Source: Clostridiaceae bacterium (GTDB lineage: Bacteria; Bacillota; Clostridia; Saccharofermentanales; Saccharofermentanaceae). Taken from it: 64,000 bases of DNA. A program made the translations under genes and the position numbers. The stretch lies in the NCBI GenBank assembly GCA_012729635.1, contig JAAYCT010000025.1, positions 1 through 64,000 of the forward strand. Reading direction: 5' to 3'. Positions 16,031 through 24,852 of this stretch are shown here, in pieces (within the stretch, counting starts at the first letter, position 1; each line of letters opens with the position of its first letter). The notes under the pieces were generated by a model. The model searched no databases. It had not been told where the DNA came from and saw only the letters and a program-made list of their open reading frames with translations.

Positions 16031-16947
16031 TGCGACACGTTTTGACATATGACGCTCATAACATTCGACTGGATCAATATGTTTCGTCGGCTATTCCGGA
16101 TATGTCACGCAATCGATTATCGTCATTGATTGTTTCCGGCGCGGTAACCGTCGACGGGAAAAGTGTTAAACCTTCATTCAAGCCCCATTACGGAGCCACT
16201 ATTGAGTTGGAGATTCCCGAAACGGTGATGTCAGATATCCGCGCTGAAAATATCCCCCTTGAAATTGCCTATGAAGATGATGATCTTTTGGTTGTTAATA
16301 AGCCCCAGGGAATGGTCGTTCATCCTGCGCCCGGTCATTATTCGGGAACCCTTGTAAATGCTTTAATGTTTCATTTCAATGAGCGGTTGTCTGATATTTA
16401 CGGATCATCGCGTCCCGGAATCATTCATCGCATAGATAAAGATACTTCAGGATTGCTCATTGTCGTAAAGAACAATGAAATGCACACCAAAATGTCGAGA
16501 TTGATTTCGAATCACGATGTTATTCGATCATACAGATGCTGTGTTCATGGCATCATTGATACATTAAAAGGAACCATTGATGCACCAATCGGAAGATCGG
16601 ACTCCGACCGGAAAAAAATGACGGTCAAAGGATCGGGGAAATTGGCCGTTACCCACTTTGAAGTTGTGAAGCGCTTTGCAAAGGCGACGGATCTTTCCGT
16701 TGTTCTTGAAACCGGAAGAACGCATCAGATTCGTGCGCATATGGCTTTTATCGGACATCCCGCAATCGGGGATCCGGTTTATTCCGGAAGAAGAACGTCG
16801 TATGGATTGGTCGGTCAAGCATTGCACAGCAAATCCATTCGCTTTACGCACCCGGGATCCGGTAAAGAGATTTTTGTAGAATCCGAGCTTCCCGATTATT
16901 ACAAGAAATTACTTGATACTTTGAATGCAGATGCCTACACGGAGTAA
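16030..16947 (+). CDS. rluD: RluD-type pseudouridine synthase
   Basis: 305 residues: an N-terminal S4 RNA-binding domain (RLDQYVSSAIPDMSRNRLSSL), then the catalytic domain with HRIDKDTSGLLIVVKN (catalytic Asp) and LETGRTHQIRAHMAFIGHPAIGDPVY. RluD modifies helix 69 of 23S rRNA in Enterobacteria; the target here is inferred. The ATG overlaps the lspA stop. An 8-bp perfect hairpin (16937-16944 with 16952-16959) spans its stop codon but lacks a T tract. Confidence 0.92.
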   Translation: MRHVLTYDAHNIRLDQYVSSAIPDMSRNRLSSLIVSGAVTVDGKSVKPSFKPHYGATIELEIPETVMSDIRAENIPLEIAYEDDDLLVVNKPQGMVVHPAPGHYSGTLVNALMFHFNERLSDIYGSSRPGIIHRIDKDTSGLLIVVKNNEMHTKMSRLISNHDVIRSYRCCVHGIIDTLKGTIDAPIGRSDSDRKKMTVKGSGKLAVTHFEVVKRFAKATDLSVVLETGRTHQIRAHMAFIGHPAIGDPVYSGRRTSYGLVGQALHSKSIRFTHPGSGKEIFVESELPDYYKKLLDTLNADAYTE

Positions 16948-16990
16948 ATCGCTCCGTGTACCCAAATTGAAAATTCAATACGCTACTGCG

Positions 16991-17003
16991 TATGTGGTAT
17001 ACT
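16991..17003 (+). promoter_or_regulatory. Extended -10 promoter candidate for phoH
   Basis: TGG directly followed by TATACT (16998-17003) in the gap between rluD and phoH, with no good -35. A short palindrome TACGC-N4-GCGTA lies just upstream (about 16979-16992). Confidence 0.4.
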
Positions 17004-17068
17004 TTTATCAGATTATTTTCATATTCCGATTGGATAAAACGATGGAGAAAATATCCTTGAAAGGTGCG

Positions 17069-18064
17069 GAAATGGCCGAAGCAAACCCATCGATAGACGA
17101 GAGAATATTGACCCATACTATTCATTCAAGCCTTTCGGTAAATCGTGCCTCTTTAACCGCTCTGGAGGAGTCTTTGGGTGTTGAGGTCAGAACGGATCAT
17201 GACGCCGTGATCGTGTCGGGGCCAAAGCGGGATGTTCTCCGATCCGCTATGACGATTCGTGCGATCGATCGCGCGTTTTCCCCGGGAGAAGAAATCGACT
17301 CGCAATCCATTCGCTATCTGATAAGTTTGGGAGATTCCGAGTCAATTGATCGGTTTTCTAAAATTTATTCCGAATCGATATATGTTACTCCGAAAGGTTA
17401 TTCGCTTCGGTGTAAAACGATCGGACAAAAAATTTATGCGGACGCGATACATAATAACGAGGTGGTTTTTTGTGTTGGTCCGGCAGGGTCAGGGAAAACA
17501 TATTTGGGTGTTGCCGCAGCAGTTATGGCTTTTCAGAAGAAAGAGGTTTCGCGCATTGTTCTGACTCGTCCGGCGGTAGAAGCCGGTGAGAGATTGGGAT
17601 TTCTTCCCGGTGATCTTCAGGAAAAAGTCGATCCGTATATGAGGCCGATTTATGATGCATTAAAGGATTTGCTGGGTTTTGAGTCATTCTCCCGATACTA
17701 TGAAAAAGGCCTGATTGAAGTTTCTCCTCTGGCATTTATGAGAGGACGAACACTGGATGATGCTTTTATTCTATTAGATGAGGCTCAGAATACGACCGTC
17801 GATCAGATGATTATGTTTTTAACGAGAATTGGGATGAACTCCAAGGCTTGTGTTTGTGGGGACATCACTCAGATTGATTTGCCTTCCGGGACTCGAAACG
17901 GTCTTTCTGATGCCATTAACGTGCTTTCGGATGTTAAGGGAATTGCATCGGTATTCCTTACGAGCGCCGATATTGTTCGTAATCCGATTGTACAAAAAAT
18001 AGTGCTTGCCTATCGAAAAGACCGGGCGTTGCGAAAGGAGGATGCGAATGAGCAAATCACGTAA
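17069..18064 (+). CDS. phoH: PhoH-family ATPase (PhoL type)
   Basis: A 331-residue PhoH-like protein: an N-terminal KH-like region, then a P-loop ATPase with GPAGSGKTYLG, the conserved TRPAVEAGERLGFLPGD, LDEAQNTT and GDITQIDLP. Proposed to be an RNA helicase or ATPase in rRNA maturation with YbeY, whose gene lies two places downstream. ATG 17069 follows AAAGGTG; ATG 17042 is possible. In spore formers yqfC-yqfD precede it; here rluD does. It overlaps pgpH. Confidence 0.94.
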   Translation, partial: EMAEANPSIDERILTHTIHSSLSVNRASLTALEESLGVEVRTDHDAVIVSGPKRDVLRSAMTIRAIDRAFSPGEEIDSQSIRYLISLGDSESIDRFSKIYSESIYVTPKGYSLRCKTIGQKIYADAIHNNEVVFCVGPAGSGKTYLGVAAAVMAFQKKEVSRIVLTRPAVEAGERLGFLPGDLQEKVDPYMRPIYDALKDLLGFESFSRYYEKGLIEVSPLAFMRGRTLDDAFILLDEAQNTTVDQMIMFLTRIGMNSKACVCGDITQIDLPSGTRNGLSDAINVLSDVKGIASVFLTSADIVRNPIVQKIVLAYRKDRALRKEDANEQIT

Positions 18065-20135
18065 ATCAAAGAATGCAATACGAGTCGTATTGATATGTAT
18101 CATTGTTCCGGTAATGATTGCAATCGTGTATTTGGGATCTATTCCTCAAAAGTATAATTTGTCGGTCGGATCCGTCAGCAACCTGGATATTTCCGCGCCC
18201 AGATCCGTAGTCGACACATATGAAACCGAAAAGAAAGCACTCCTTGCGATCGAATCGGTTCAACCGATTTATGTTCGGTCCGAAACAGTCGCGGAAGAAT
18301 CCGTAAACAGGGTATACCGTTTTTTTGACGAGGTAGGGGATTTGCGAGATGAGAATACCCGCGATGACGGTACGTACATTGATTCCTTCGCATCATTAAG
18401 CAGTCGGCTGAAATTGCTTATCCGGGATTCCTTCGGCATCGAATTAACCGATGACGAGGCTTTCCAATTGGTTACTTCTTCTTCCGAATTGTTCTATGAA
18501 ATAAGGGCAAACTCCATCGTCATAGCAAAGTCGTTAATGGTGGATAATCTGGATGACATCATGCTCAAAGACGCAATCGATTTGAAAACCTCTGTGATTT
18601 CGGATTCGGAAACGACATACTATATTTCTGTACGTGATCTCGTCCGATCCATTCTTTCCCAATTGATGTCTCCGAATATCGAGCCGGATGCGGTTGCAAC
18701 GGAAGCGGCTCGAGATGCTGCGTATGATGCGGCGATGATGAATCCGGTAATGGTTGAAAAGGGGTATCGAATCATAAACGTCGGAGAAGTGGTAACCGAG
18801 CGCGAGTACCAGGTTCTTCGGGATTTAAACCTGCTGGAAACCGATCAATTCGATTATCTTCTGTTGATCGGAATCATCTTTTACACGTTGATTCTCTTGG
18901 TTGTATTGTCGCTTTATCTTATTCAGGTGAAACCGATCATCATGTCCAATCCGAAAGATCTTATCGCAGTTTCGCTGTCTTTTCTTTTGCCTGTTCTGGC
19001 ATCTCTATATTTAAAAGACATATCATCGCTGATTTCGACCGTATATTTTTCTGCGGTTATTCTTGCAACTTATATGGGTATTCAGTCAGGCATCGTTATG
19101 TGCTTTTTGCAAATACTTATTATCGCTCCGATCTATAATTTTGATGTCGAGTATATCCTAGTTTCGGTTATCGGCATCTTCATTTGTTCTGTGATCGCAG
19201 GAAGAAAAACAAGGAAATTCAATTCCGCCACGTTGATTATATTTACCGCTTTTGCGTGTTTTGCTTCTTCGGTCGCGTACAATCTCGTTTTGAAATCTCC
19301 GAGGTCCGTTTTGTTTACATCCGCATTATGGGCGATTATTTCCTCAACAACTTCCGTAATTGCCGCAATCGGATCCATGCCGATTTTCGAACTGATATCC
19401 AACACGGTTTCTCCGGTTCGGTTAATTGATCTTTCTCAACCGGGGAACCCGCTCTTAAAGAGGCTGTTTCTTGAAGCTCCGGGGACCTCGCAACACAGCA
19501 TGATGGTTGCCAATCTTGCGGATTCCGGAGCGGACGCAATCGGGGCCGATGCACTTCTTGCCAAGGTAGGAGCCTACTATCATGATATCGGGAAGTTGGA
19601 GAACCCGACATATTTCAGCGAGAATCAACAGGAAGGATATAATCCGCACAATGATATTTCACCGGAGGAAAGCATGTCAATAATTGCGGCTCATGCGGAC
19701 CAGGGGGTGCGGCTTGCCAGAAAAAATCGGCTTCCGAACAGTATCGTTCAAATTATTCAAGAGCATCATGGAACAACGTGTCAAATTTTCTTTTATCATA
19801 AAGCAAAATCCTTAGCGGTTAAGAAAGGGATGCCCGAGCCTTCCATCAATGATTTTCGATATAAGGGAGGAATTCCTTCATCCAAGGAATCTGCAGTGGT
19901 CATGCTGGCGGATACTTGTGAGGCGGCGCTTCGATCAACAGGAATAACGAATCTCGATGATGCGGAGGATTTATTTCGAAAACTGTTTAAGCAAAAAATC
20001 GAGCAAGATCAGTTAAATGATTCGGGACTCTCATTTAATGACCTGGAAACGATATTAAGAGCATTTCTTCAAGTGTATGCGGGATTTTTCCATGAAAGGG
20101 TGCGGTATCCGGATGATAGTACTGTTCGTCAATAA
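18048..20135 (+). CDS. pgpH: 7TM-HD cyclic-di-AMP phosphodiesterase (PgpH type)
   Basis: 695 residues in the standard 7TMR-HDED architecture: an N-terminal transmembrane helix, an extracellular domain (about 40-280), a block of seven transmembrane helices (about 280-465) and a cytosolic HD domain with YYHDIGKLENP, DHG-equivalent AAHADQG and EHHGT. PgpH homologues hydrolyse c-di-AMP and influence wall and potassium balance. A strong ribosome site (AAAGGAGG) precedes ATG 18048. Neighbours phoH and ybeY are those of Bacillus yqfF. Confidence 0.93.
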   Translation: MSKSRKSKNAIRVVLICIIVPVMIAIVYLGSIPQKYNLSVGSVSNLDISAPRSVVDTYETEKKALLAIESVQPIYVRSETVAEESVNRVYRFFDEVGDLRDENTRDDGTYIDSFASLSSRLKLLIRDSFGIELTDDEAFQLVTSSSELFYEIRANSIVIAKSLMVDNLDDIMLKDAIDLKTSVISDSETTYYISVRDLVRSILSQLMSPNIEPDAVATEAARDAAYDAAMMNPVMVEKGYRIINVGEVVTEREYQVLRDLNLLETDQFDYLLLIGIIFYTLILLVVLSLYLIQVKPIIMSNPKDLIAVSLSFLLPVLASLYLKDISSLISTVYFSAVILATYMGIQSGIVMCFLQILIIAPIYNFDVEYILVSVIGIFICSVIAGRKTRKFNSATLIIFTAFACFASSVAYNLVLKSPRSVLFTSALWAIISSTTSVIAAIGSMPIFELISNTVSPVRLIDLSQPGNPLLKRLFLEAPGTSQHSMMVANLADSGADAIGADALLAKVGAYYHDIGKLENPTYFSENQQEGYNPHNDISPEESMSIIAAHADQGVRLARKNRLPNSIVQIIQEHHGTTCQIFFYHKAKSLAVKKGMPEPSINDFRYKGGIPSSKESAVVMLADTCEAALRSTGITNLDDAEDLFRKLFKQKIEQDQLNDSGLSFNDLETILRAFLQVYAGFFHERVRYPDDSTVRQ

Positions 20136-21609
20136 ACAAAGGAAATATGATGTTCAATGTGTGGAGCGAATGAAGATTGTCTGCCAAAAGGCGATGGACG
20201 TCGTCGCTTCGGCTTCATTTGTCGATTCTGCCCTAAAGGTAAAATCGACATGTCTTTCCGTTACCATATCGTTTGTCGGTGCCGAACACATGAAAAAAAC
20301 AAATTACGAGTATCGTGACATTAATGAGATAACCGACGTGCTTTCATTTCCGCTTTTGGACATGCAAAACGGAAAGCTTCTGAAGCCGCTCGGAGCGCAA
20401 GATATTCTTTGGCATAAGGACGGAATCGGTGAAATTTCTCTTGGGGATGTTCTGATATCACTCGATAAAGCGAAAACACAAGCGGATGACCTCGGACACA
20501 GTATGGATCGAGAGGTTGCTTTTTTGGCTGTACATGCCGCATTGCATCTGATCGGATTTGACCATATCAAATCGGAGGATGATAAAAGAATGATTTCCGA
20601 GCAAAAGAGAATGATGAAAAAACTTTATCCGAGCGAGACGGAAAAAAATGCGAATATCGATCCTTCCGGAACCGATGACCATGAAACATCATCGGTGAAA
20701 CACTCGGGATTTGCGGCAATAATCGGGAAACCGAACGTCGGGAAGTCAACCCTGTTGAATCAATTAGCCGGATACAAGTTGTCTATTATTTCCGGGAAAC
20801 CCCAAACAACACGTAATAATATTCGTGCTGTGATTAACCGTTTTGACGCACAAGTCATCTTTGTTGATACTCCGGGGATTTTAAAACCCAAAGACGGGCT
20901 TTCTCGATTTATGGCGGACTCCTCCGTTCGTGCCGTCCAATTTGCCGATGTAATCCTTTTCATGATTGACGGGCGGTTTTCAACACCTTCAGAAGCGGAC
21001 CGAAAAGCAATTGAGATTTTTTCCCGTTACGGCAAGCCGGTCATTCTTGTAATCAATAAGGTTGACTGCGTGGTTAAAGAGTCAATTCTGCCGATCATAT
21101 CCGTGTATTCGGAACTGTATCCGTTTCGAGCCATGATTCCCGTATCCGCAAAAAGCGGTGACGGCCTGGAACTGTTGTTGGATGAAACGATTTCGCTGCT
21201 ACCTTCCGGACCAAAATACTACCCGGACATTGATTTCACGGATCAATCGGAGCGATCCATCACTTCGGAGCTGATTCGTGAGCAAATCCTACATTTTACA
21301 AATCAAGAAGTACCGCACGGTACAGCGGTTCTTGTGGATCGATTTGAGGAAATATTCACGGAAAGCAATTCGGAAGAGCGAGAAATGGTTCGTGTTTTCG
21401 CGTCCATTGTCTGTGAGAAAAAGACACACAAGGCAATCATCCTGGGAAAAGAAGGACAAATGATCAAGCGAATCGGTACTTCTGCAAGAAGAAGCATAGA
21501 AGGGATGACCGGATGCAAGGTGTTTCTTGATTTGCATGTGAAGGTTAGAAACGATTGGAAAAATTTGTCTTCTCATCTGAACGAGCTGGGTTATCGTAAG
21601 GGAGATTAA
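20113..21609 (+). CDS. ybeY-era: YbeY-Era fusion: rRNA endoribonuclease joined to ribosome-assembly GTPase
   Basis: One continuous 498-residue frame holds two normally separate proteins. Residues about 1-165 are YbeY, a zinc endoribonuclease needed for 16S rRNA 3'-end maturation, with NEITDVLSFPL, GEISLGDVLIS and the metal motif HAALHLIGFDH (His141, His145, His151). A linker of about 25 polar residues follows. From about 195 to the end is Era: G1 GKPNVGKST at 205, G3 DTPG, G4 NKVD, G5-like SAKSG, then a KH domain with ILGKEGQMIKRIG that binds the 16S 3' end. No stop or frameshift separates the halves, and both active sites are intact. ATG 20113 overlaps pgpH by 23 bases and has GAAAGGG upstream. 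Genes often found between ybeY and era (dgkA, cdd) are absent. recO follows. Confidence 0.95.
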   Translation: MIVLFVNKQRKYDVQCVERMKIVCQKAMDVVASASFVDSALKVKSTCLSVTISFVGAEHMKKTNYEYRDINEITDVLSFPLLDMQNGKLLKPLGAQDILWHKDGIGEISLGDVLISLDKAKTQADDLGHSMDREVAFLAVHAALHLIGFDHIKSEDDKRMISEQKRMMKKLYPSETEKNANIDPSGTDDHETSSVKHSGFAAIIGKPNVGKSTLLNQLAGYKLSIISGKPQTTRNNIRAVINRFDAQVIFVDTPGILKPKDGLSRFMADSSVRAVQFADVILFMIDGRFSTPSEADRKAIEIFSRYGKPVILVINKVDCVVKESILPIISVYSELYPFRAMIPVSAKSGDGLELLLDETISLLPSGPKYYPDIDFTDQSERSITSELIREQILHFTNQEVPHGTAVLVDRFEEIFTESNSEEREMVRVFASIVCEKKTHKAIILGKEGQMIKRIGTSARRSIEGMTGCKVFLDLHVKVRNDWKNLSSHLNELGYRKGD

Positions 21610-21610
21610 A

Positions 21611-22387
21611 GTGTCGAGCATGAAAATTCGCGGGCTCGTCCTGTCTTCGAGGCCCCATAAAGAGCAGGATCGCCTCATTCGAGTACTGACAATCGAAAAC
21701 GGAGTGCTTCTTGCATGTGCTCCGGGTGCCGGAAAAACAGGCAGCAGACATGCACTTTCAGCTCAGTGTGGCACATTATCCGACTTCACATTCAACCATT
21801 CACGTGGTTTTTTGTACGTAAAGGAATCGGAAATGGTTGAGCCTTTTCGCGGTTTATATGAAGATATTGAAAAACTTACGGCTGCTGCCCACATACTGGA
21901 GATTACTTCGGATGTTTGCGTATCGCAGGATATATCTTCCGTAATCTATCCGGTTACGATTTGCGCACTGTTTGCATTGTCTGAAACGCAAAAGAATACA
22001 TCTCCGGTTATATCCGCCTTTGAATGGAAGGTGATGGACGTTTCCGGATATTCGGCGGATCTGAGCGCTTGCCCTTGCGGTAAATCAGAAAAGGATAGTT
22101 CATTTGCTTTTTCCTTTAATCGTTGCAGGATCTTTTGTCTTCGTCCTTCATGTCTTTCCGAGGCAGGCAAATACAAAGTAATTTCGATCGGTGCCGTTGA
22201 GGCGCTTCGCTTTTTCAAAAGAGCAGAAGCTTCGAATCTTTTTTCGTTTACCGTATCCGATGAAGTCTCGGATGAATTATCGGAAATCACACGAAAATAT
22301 CTGTGTGAGCATCTCGAGAAAAAGTACTGCAAAATGGATATGCTGGATTTAATCAAGGATTATTCGATATGCGAATCGTCGGAATGA
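21611..22387 (+). CDS. recO: DNA repair protein RecO
   Basis: 258 residues. RecO loads RecA onto SSB-coated single-stranded DNA with RecR and anneals strands. The N-terminal OB domain begins MKIRGLVLSSRPHKEQDRLI, helical middle and a zinc-finger region with Cys residues in CPCGK and CLRPSC. The GTG start overlaps nothing (one base after the fusion stop) and has AGGGAG upstream. Its 3' end overlaps the convergent nuclease-helicase gene by 28 bases. Confidence 0.92.
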   Translation: MSSMKIRGLVLSSRPHKEQDRLIRVLTIENGVLLACAPGAGKTGSRHALSAQCGTLSDFTFNHSRGFLYVKESEMVEPFRGLYEDIEKLTAAAHILEITSDVCVSQDISSVIYPVTICALFALSETQKNTSPVISAFEWKVMDVSGYSADLSACPCGKSEKDSSFAFSFNRCRIFCLRPSCLSEAGKYKVISIGAVEALRFFKRAEASNLFSFTVSDEVSDELSEITRKYLCEHLEKKYCKMDMLDLIKDYSICESSE

Positions 22388-24852
22388 TTCGGAATGTACT
22401 CTTCCGGATCAATCGAAAGTTCTGTTCGCCAGTGTTTGGGGAATAGACATCGGTATTCGCCTTGTGCATACCGATGATCCATAAGAACGACAAAACCTTG
22501 ATCCGACTCATCTCGAATCACCCGGCCGCTTGCCTGCAAGACCTTTTCCCAACCGGGGAAACGGTATGCGTATGCGTATCCGTCGCCGAATTTTTCCTGA
22601 TAATACTGTCGTAGAATTTCTCTTTCCGGTGAAATTTGCGGTATTCCGACCCCAACGATGAATACCCCCGACAACTTTTCGCCGACCAGATCAATGCCTT
22701 CGCCGAAATGTCCTCCCAAAACAGCGAAAGCAAGTAATGTCCTTGTTCCGAAGACATTAAAACTCTTAAGGAAATTCTCCTTGTCGGAAGCACTCATATC
22801 TTTGTTTTGCATAAGGATCTCGGTGTTTTTTAAAGAGCATCGATCACGGATCAGCGTGGATACAAAATTTAAATATCGAAAGGAGGGAAAATAAACGATA
22901 TAATTACCGCATGATTTTGAAACATGATCAATGATACATTCAGCGACCGAATTAACAGTTGATACTCTTTCTCTGTATACGGTTCGAATGTCTGTGCGAA
23001 AGATCAGTTTCAAATTCTCGGGCGGGAACGGGCTTTCGATAACAATCTCGTCGACGGAGTCTTCATCGGGACCGACTAATATAGTTCTGTAATAAACGGA
23101 TGGCGAAAGAGTAGCGGAAAAAAAGACACACGGATGACGCTTCTTTATTCGGGAGGAGATAAACTCCGATGCGTCAAGGCAGGATAAGGAGAAGTGAAAA
23201 GTCGGAGCAAACGGTTTCCCGCTTTCGGACCGTTTATCGATTTGGATAACAAAGATATAGGAGTCACCATAATATTGCTCAATGATAGTTATAAAAAAGC
23301 GGGCCTCGAAAAAAAAGTCAAGAATCGCTTTGCGGACCGGACCGACCGGGACGGTATCCAAAATAAAGGAGAGTCGGTAACACAAACGCCACAATTCCGC
23401 ATATAAGAATTTTGGAATCATTTTGACAGCACGAAAATCATCCGCGATAAAGACATGTTCATCCTTATATGTGCTTTCAACACGATTAATCGATTTCTCA
23501 CCCGACAGGATTAAATCATACACGGTTGAAAAGTAACGATAAATTATTTCGCTGTGCGCATCAATCTCGGGTGTTATTCCGCGGACTGCTTTGTAAAACA
23601 GATCGAAAGTTTCAAAGTTGAGCTTTGCGGTAAACATTTCTCGTGAACGATCTGCAAGATTATGTGCTTCGTCATTCAATAGAATATGTGATTGTGATGG
23701 ATCTTCAAAATATCGCTCCAAACGAATCCTCGGATGAAAAGCATGATTATAATCCCCGATAATTACATCACAATACTCGGAGAAGTCCAGAGAAAGCTCA
23801 AAAGGACAAATCGAATATTTTGCTGAAGTCTTTTGTATTTCGTCCGGGGTTATATCCGAAATCAACTTAAGATCGGAAAGCGCAGCATTTAATCGATCGT
23901 AGTATCCGATTGCATATGGGCAGACCTTGGGCTCACAGTAAATATCTTTATTGGGACACATAGATTCCTTCGATGAAAGAAGAATCGACCGAATATAAAG
24001 GCCGTTGTTGCGAAGATCGTGAAGTGTTTTTCTGCAAACGTCACGAGTTGAAATTTTTGCGGTCAGGTAGAAAATTTTATCCGCAAAACCTCTCGCGATA
24101 CATTTCAGAGCAGGAAATAGGACTCCGATCGTTTTCCCGATTCCGGTCGGAGCTTCAGCAAACAATATCTCTTTTTTTCGGATTGCGCCAACAACGCTTT
24201 CCATCAGCATTTTTTGTCCGTCACGAAGATTTATGTATGGAAAAGAGAGTCGGGTTATTGATTCATTTCGTCTCGTTCTTTCATCAACAATAAATTGCGC
24301 GATATTGCGATAACTCCTACATGTTTCATCAAAAAATATTTTGGCGTCAAGACGGGTAATTCGTTCTGTTTTGTCGGTCGGTTGCACTGTTTGTACAGAA
24401 ACATAGGAAAGAATGATTTCAAGCTCATCGATTTCCTGTTTGTCGCAAAACAGCATATGTGCGTAAAGCAATAACTGAGCGCGGTGAACCGGTCGGAATA
24501 AATCATTAACGGTTGCGTTTTGCCGATTGTGTGACTTGATCTCAATCAGTGAATACAAATCTGAATTTGACTCGTGTTTCTCGATCAGACAATCCGCACG
24601 ACCGGAAACCCTCAGAAGAAAACCGTCTTTCGAGTACTCACAAAAGAGAGGAACCTCGGTTCTCACGATTCGGTCCGGGTATCGTTGGGCAATATCATCA
24701 AAAACTTTTCGATGTAATCGTGTTCCTTCCTGTCCGGAAACCGAAGAAAACGATACGCCGGAAAGATTACCGGTTACATAAATTTGCTCCGCAAGAAGCC
24801 TTGCGGATACACTGTATGCAATCACCTCAGTTCCAGGATCTTTCGGATTCAT
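22360..24852 (-). CDS. RecB-family nuclease fused to XPD/DinG-type iron-sulfur helicase
   Basis: 830 residues. The N-terminal part (about 1-200) has the PD-(D/E)XK motifs of RecB/Cas4-like nucleases: His47, Asp87 in GRAD, Glu104 and Lys106 in IEIK, and the Gln126/Tyr130 motif in QLLLY. The rest is a superfamily 2 XPD/DinG helicase: Walker A APTGIGKT (about 233), four Cys that fit an Fe-S cluster (CPNKDIYCEPKVC at about 297-309 and ICPFEL at about 350), a DEAH box (NDEAHNLADRS), FFSATLSP, GGHFGEGIDL and the motif VI region QASGRVIRD. It probably unwinds and cuts DNA in repair; the substrate is unknown. A TATAAT lies 40-odd bases upstream (near 24893) with a poor -35. Similar fusions exist in Clostridia as unnamed ATP-dependent helicases, to my knowledge. 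Confidence 0.88.
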   Translation of the reverse strand: MNPKDPGTEVIAYSVSARLLAEQIYVTGNLSGVSFSSVSGQEGTRLHRKVFDDIAQRYPDRIVRTEVPLFCEYSKDGFLLRVSGRADCLIEKHESNSDLYSLIEIKSHNRQNATVNDLFRPVHRAQLLLYAHMLFCDKQEIDELEIILSYVSVQTVQPTDKTERITRLDAKIFFDETCRSYRNIAQFIVDERTRRNESITRLSFPYINLRDGQKMLMESVVGAIRKKEILFAEAPTGIGKTIGVLFPALKCIARGFADKIFYLTAKISTRDVCRKTLHDLRNNGLYIRSILLSSKESMCPNKDIYCEPKVCPYAIGYYDRLNAALSDLKLISDITPDEIQKTSAKYSICPFELSLDFSEYCDVIIGDYNHAFHPRIRLERYFEDPSQSHILLNDEAHNLADRSREMFTAKLNFETFDLFYKAVRGITPEIDAHSEIIYRYFSTVYDLILSGEKSINRVESTYKDEHVFIADDFRAVKMIPKFLYAELWRLCYRLSFILDTVPVGPVRKAILDFFFEARFFITIIEQYYGDSYIFVIQIDKRSESGKPFAPTFHFSLSCLDASEFISSRIKKRHPCVFFSATLSPSVYYRTILVGPDEDSVDEIVIESPFPPENLKLIFRTDIRTVYRERVSTVNSVAECIIDHVSKSCGNYIVYFPSFRYLNFVSTLIRDRCSLKNTEILMQNKDMSASDKENFLKSFNVFGTRTLLAFAVLGGHFGEGIDLVGEKLSGVFIVGVGIPQISPEREILRQYYQEKFGDGYAYAYRFPGWEKVLQASGRVIRDESDQGFVVLMDHRYAQGEYRCLFPKHWRTELSIDPEEYIPNHSDDSHIE

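Follow-up and report, generated by a model that had tools for sequence, protein, structure and literature searches.

Within the window, the 64,000-nucleotide stretch of contig JAAYCT010000025.1 analyzed here, a single open reading frame appears to encode both YbeY and Era, raising the question of whether this locus holds a genuine fusion and what the joining of these two proteins might do. We conclude, with a probability of roughly 0.8, that it holds a genuine, fixed YbeY-Era fusion, one chain of which would supply both factors at the 30S platform in a 1:1 ratio. The fusion itself is read from its frame, intact domains, sole copies, family-wide conservation, recurrent origin and lost era translation start, and its function by analogy with stand-alone homologs.

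Architecture of the fused gene

The fused ybeY-era gene (positions 20113–21609, + strand) comprises 498 stop-free codons in one frame of the window's contig. An in-frame ATG also occurs at 20077; the start conserved in the family is the ATG at 20113, located six residues ahead of the profile start and preceded by a likely ribosome-binding region (AAAGGG..., 20094–20112, +) whose pairing with the anti-SD is similar across the family. This region lies within the 3' end of a gene encoding a PgpH-like 7TM-HD phosphodiesterase (18006–20135, +; Pfam 7TMR-HDED, 7TM-7TMR_HD and HD), which overlaps the fusion start by 23 nt, as it also does in other family members. Because the fusion starts within the last codons of the PgpH-like gene and this overlap is kept, translational coupling of the two is suggested. 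A PhoH/YbeZ ATPase gene (16925–18064, +; Pfam PhoH, 295 bits) lies two genes upstream of the fusion, and recO (21611–22387, +; Pfam RecO_N and RecO_C) directly 3' of it. Convergent with recO is a gene for an XPD/DinG-type helicase (22360–24852, −; DEAD_2 and Helicase_C_2), whose extra N-terminal ~200 residues have no Pfam match.

The initial annotation had described one frame holding a complete YbeY with three metal-binding histidines and a complete Era with G motifs and a KH domain, and the open frame, Pfam, NCBIfam and motif analyses all bear this out. Pfam places YbeY at residues 36–171 (E 1.8e-34), MMR_HSR1 at 201–316 and KH_2 at 413–482 (E 1.6e-15) of the 498-residue protein, so that YbeY precedes Era within a single open frame, as in the published architecture. 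The YbeY domain (20113–20625, +; residues 1–171) scores 113.8 bits with the NCBIfam model TIGR00043 (cut-off 45); the Era domain (20701–21606, +) scores 332 bits with the Era equivalog NF000908 (cut-off 237) and is likewise above the curated cut-off of TIGR00436. The YbeY metal site, HxxxHxxxxxH, is present as HAALHLIGFDH (H141, H145 and H151), and the conserved arginine is R68. In Era, the G1–G4 motifs of TRAFAC GTPases occur as GKPNVGKST, TTR, DTPG and NKVD, and the GxxG of the KH domain as GKEG. The domains are joined by a variable linker (20626–20700, +; about residues 172–196, ~26 residues) with a disordered core at residues 181–192 (pLDDT <50).

The Era part of the predicted structure is confident and matches the stand-alone Era 3iev with a Z-score of 38.7 over 296 residues (38% identity). 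The model is poor at YbeY residues 54–110, because few homologs were allowed in the alignment, leaving the YbeY part only partly reliable, and domain packing was therefore not read from it. The structural comparison, which covered mostly residues 191–494, listed no YbeY chain; by sequence, the YbeY part matched the PDB entries 7y7o (E 1.2e-16) and 1oz9 (E 5.2e-13).

The fused proteins of relatives retain the metal histidine triad and the Era motifs, with domains extracted by profile, since a simple regular-expression scan had missed many of them. One fused relative (L212, genome G469) carries a repeat-rich insertion (KQADKQATNLA-type) inside its YbeY domain, ahead of the metal motif; its linker is acidic and >80 residues long. 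The alignment of L212 looked defective, yet HGSLHLLGFDH is present past the insertion, and we rejected the idea of a degenerate YbeY.

Distribution and origin of the fusion

The window's genome is a draft of 2.15 Mb in 44 contigs with 96.65% completeness. It contains one YbeY and one Era-like match at E ≤ 1e-30, both of them the fusion, and its only other KH_2 domain belongs to ribosomal protein uS3, in its operon. Separate functional ybeY or era copies, which the initial annotation had named as grounds for discarding the fusion, were looked for and not found in this draft, which is ~3% incomplete; with a single YbeY and a single Era at that threshold, we reject their presence elsewhere in the genome.

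As the initial annotation had proposed, the domain pair was searched for across Clostridia and mapped on a tree. An order-level scan of 148 genomes included 75 of the window's family, 72 of which carry both domains in one stop-free frame; among the three exceptions, one had no Era match, one lay near a contig edge and one contained a frame break. The closest named relative, the Clostridiales MAG Zod_Metabat.14 (L035), is 64% identical, and its copy is cut by a contig end. Outside the order, stop-free fusions occurred only in G014 (family f17) and in G084 and G057 (family f26) in a class sample of 391 genomes. A phylum-level sample of 398 genomes, scanned with a 21-row fusion alignment, is thin, and its first-look filter could miss divergent cases; among the matches listed, every one that spanned both domains in a genome other than the window's contained at least one stop. 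Three loci that match coordinates had suggested as further fusions (L041, L058 and L059) were rejected, having the unfused order ybeY-dgkA-cdd-era. A tree of 90 concatenated YbeY and Era rows, built by a quick method and with several long branches, gave eight changes between the fused and separate states, at least five of them forced by strongly supported branches; the direction of change was not inferred. On this sequence evidence, ybeY and era have been joined, or the joining reversed, repeatedly.

Gene order, mapped at 84 loci, indicates how this may have come about. Distant relatives (L234, L235, L239, L240 and L242) have the order phoH-pgpH-ybeY-dgkA-cdd-era-recO. In the window's order, ybeY lies immediately 5' of era: the two are fused in families f1 and f2 and in most genera of f87, and abut as separate genes in f3 and in the f87 genera g227, g228 and g243. 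The dgkA-type kinase (PF01219), which serves a lipid step, was undetected in 19 of 20 genomes of the window's order, the window's genome included, and lies on a different contig in the remaining one; it was present in 8 of 14 control genomes. cdd is retained in the window's genome, on another contig. The loss or relocation of dgkA and cdd from between ybeY and era therefore made fusion possible. The earlier remark that the two genes are usually neighbors but separate holds as to their being separate; in Clostridia they are near each other, typically with dgkA and cdd between them. In E. coli K-12, ybeY lies beside ybeZ, with no era within the 4 kb shown.

The joining step itself is shown by a pair of sisters in genus g21. 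In the unfused L247, ybeY ends in RDAGSV and a stop, followed by AAAGGAG and the era ATG, so that stop, SD and start fall within 72 nt; the fused L225 reads through as LDYIRTSSVFRSGF, with 30 nt between the domain edges. In f3 members such as L187, the genes are separate, yet the frame of era remains open a long way 5' of its start and across ybeY, which is read in a different frame (563–593 aa); this is probably an effect of composition.

Among fused genes, pairwise comparisons gave 29–33% identity in the linker versus 67–88% in the domains. Between the window's genome and its nearest relatives, where synonymous sites are near saturation, the domains are 67–73% identical (dN ~0.20–0.24) and the linker 29–32%; a second pair, L117 and L118, likewise combines conserved domains with a diverged linker. 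These values place both domains under purifying selection and the linker under little. The gap between domain edges ranges from ~4 to ~95 residues across fusions, one longer, insertion-bearing case apart, a spread that would suit a tether better than a new rigid machine.

The main rival to a fusion kept for its function is a near-neutral joining, in which ybeY came to abut era after dgkA and cdd had disappeared from between them, and the stop and start were deleted without functional gain. A common adjacent but unfused state, the occurrence of L225 beside its unfused sister within one genus, and a linker hardly conserved in length or sequence are all consistent with such a course, whereas retention throughout nearly the whole family, repeated arrival at the same joining, and the argument that Era tolerates very few fusions (Era review, PMC10582724) speak against it. 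We regard near-neutral joining as a serious contender at a little under even odds; its probability overlaps that of the functional fusion because it concerns why the fusion spread, not the role of the protein.

One translation product or two

A fused gene might also yield two products, full-length YbeY-Era and Era alone from an internal start. The window does have a GTG just 5' of the Era domain, and many members of g225 have an ATG four codons ahead of it, but the window's GTG shows no pairing with the anti-SD (+0.4 kcal/mol). Of 69 fused genes, 0 have strong SD pairing at the Era boundary (-7 kcal/mol or better), versus 28 of 44 separate era genes, and 22 of the 69 lack any start codon there. 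To judge from these sequences, era no longer has a ribosome-binding site of its own in the fused genes; separate synthesis of Era is therefore unlikely, and with boundary pairing absent or weak and a start codon often missing we consider dual products improbable. The fused chain may be split into two proteins by proteolysis after translation. The fixed 1:1 ratio put forward in the initial annotation thus agrees with the lack of an internal Era start bearing a ribosome-binding site, and holds only if the chain stays uncleaved. A sequencing or assembly error that removed a stop between two genes, the other doubt raised at the outset and one that a draft in 44 contigs might invite, has a negligible probability and is excluded because the same stop-free fusion, with differing linkers, recurs in 72 of the 75 family genomes.

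Putative role and comparison with known systems

Work on the separate proteins has established that Era contacts h45 and the 3' end of 16S rRNA and undergoes a GTP cycle. We know of no solved structure that shows where YbeY binds on the 30S subunit. Both physical and genetic interactions connect YbeY with uS11 and Era (PMC5101352, PMC10582724), and loss of ybeY is suppressed by Era overexpression or by era(T99I) (PMC10582724, PMC9159920). Era is argued to act when the platform closes and uS11 is recruited, and to be gone before final 16S 3' processing (PMC10582724).

From these homologs, we infer that a single YbeY-Era chain would deliver the two factors at 1:1 to the platform of the nascent 30S subunit. 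Its Era KH domain would bind the 16S rRNA 3' end, the GTPase cycle would time release, and the tethered YbeY would act nearby with uS11. The predicted fold matches 3iev, an Era bound to the 16S 3' end; a search of the draft genome for its own 16S 3' end with one exact pattern gave no match. The tether would set the stoichiometry and raise the local concentration of two factors that, elsewhere, already associate when made as separate proteins. The initial annotation had placed nuclease and checkpoint jointly at the 16S 3' end, which is plausible by analogy: a shared site agrees with the Era review (PMC10582724) and with the published interactions among YbeY, Era and uS11 (PMC5101352), but joint 3'-end trimming fits less well than cooperation at the platform with uS11, because of the argued early departure of Era.

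A further possibility, which we hold only tentatively and lean against, is that the fused factor works as a single obligate machine for assembly, with YbeY and Era required to share one pre-30S particle simultaneously. In some relatives only ~4–6 residues separate the domain edges, and in L214 the last metal histidine is 27 residues from the Era P-loop; such near-absent linkers would therefore strictly bound the distance at which YbeY can be placed on the 30S subunit, and the fusions would constrain that placement if the obligate reading were true. A sole-copy, family-wide fusion whose linkers come in many lengths, and which has unfused sister genomes, offers a natural comparison for simultaneous action of the two factors, and the fusion could serve as a handle for trapping YbeY and Era on one particle by cryo-EM.

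The novelty implied by the initial annotation did not stand: the architecture is already known, since the 2023 Era review (PMC10582724) describes it in Clostridia, and the window's protein is another member. That review calls YbeY N-terminal to Era "by far the most frequent" Era fusion and, based on InterPro, reports it from Clostridia, some Selenomonadales and Thermoleophilum album. What is new is this genome's copy, the family-wide conservation and the detail of gene order and tree, which give a clearer account of origin.

Compared with stand-alone YbeY (UPF0054; 7y7o and 1oz9), the window's YbeY shares the three metal histidines and the conserved arginine, and differs in bearing Era at its C terminus. 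It is likewise with stand-alone Aquifex Era (3iev, solved with MgGNP and the 16S 3' end): the GTPase and KH domains and all motifs are shared, whereas the window's Era lacks its own start and is placed after YbeY. The published YbeY-Era fusions have the same domain order and come from the same bacterial group as the window's protein, with no difference in the features tested. The RNase III-Era fusions of some Rickettsia (PMC10582724), not seen here, similarly join an rRNA nuclease to Era, but the nuclease differs from YbeY.
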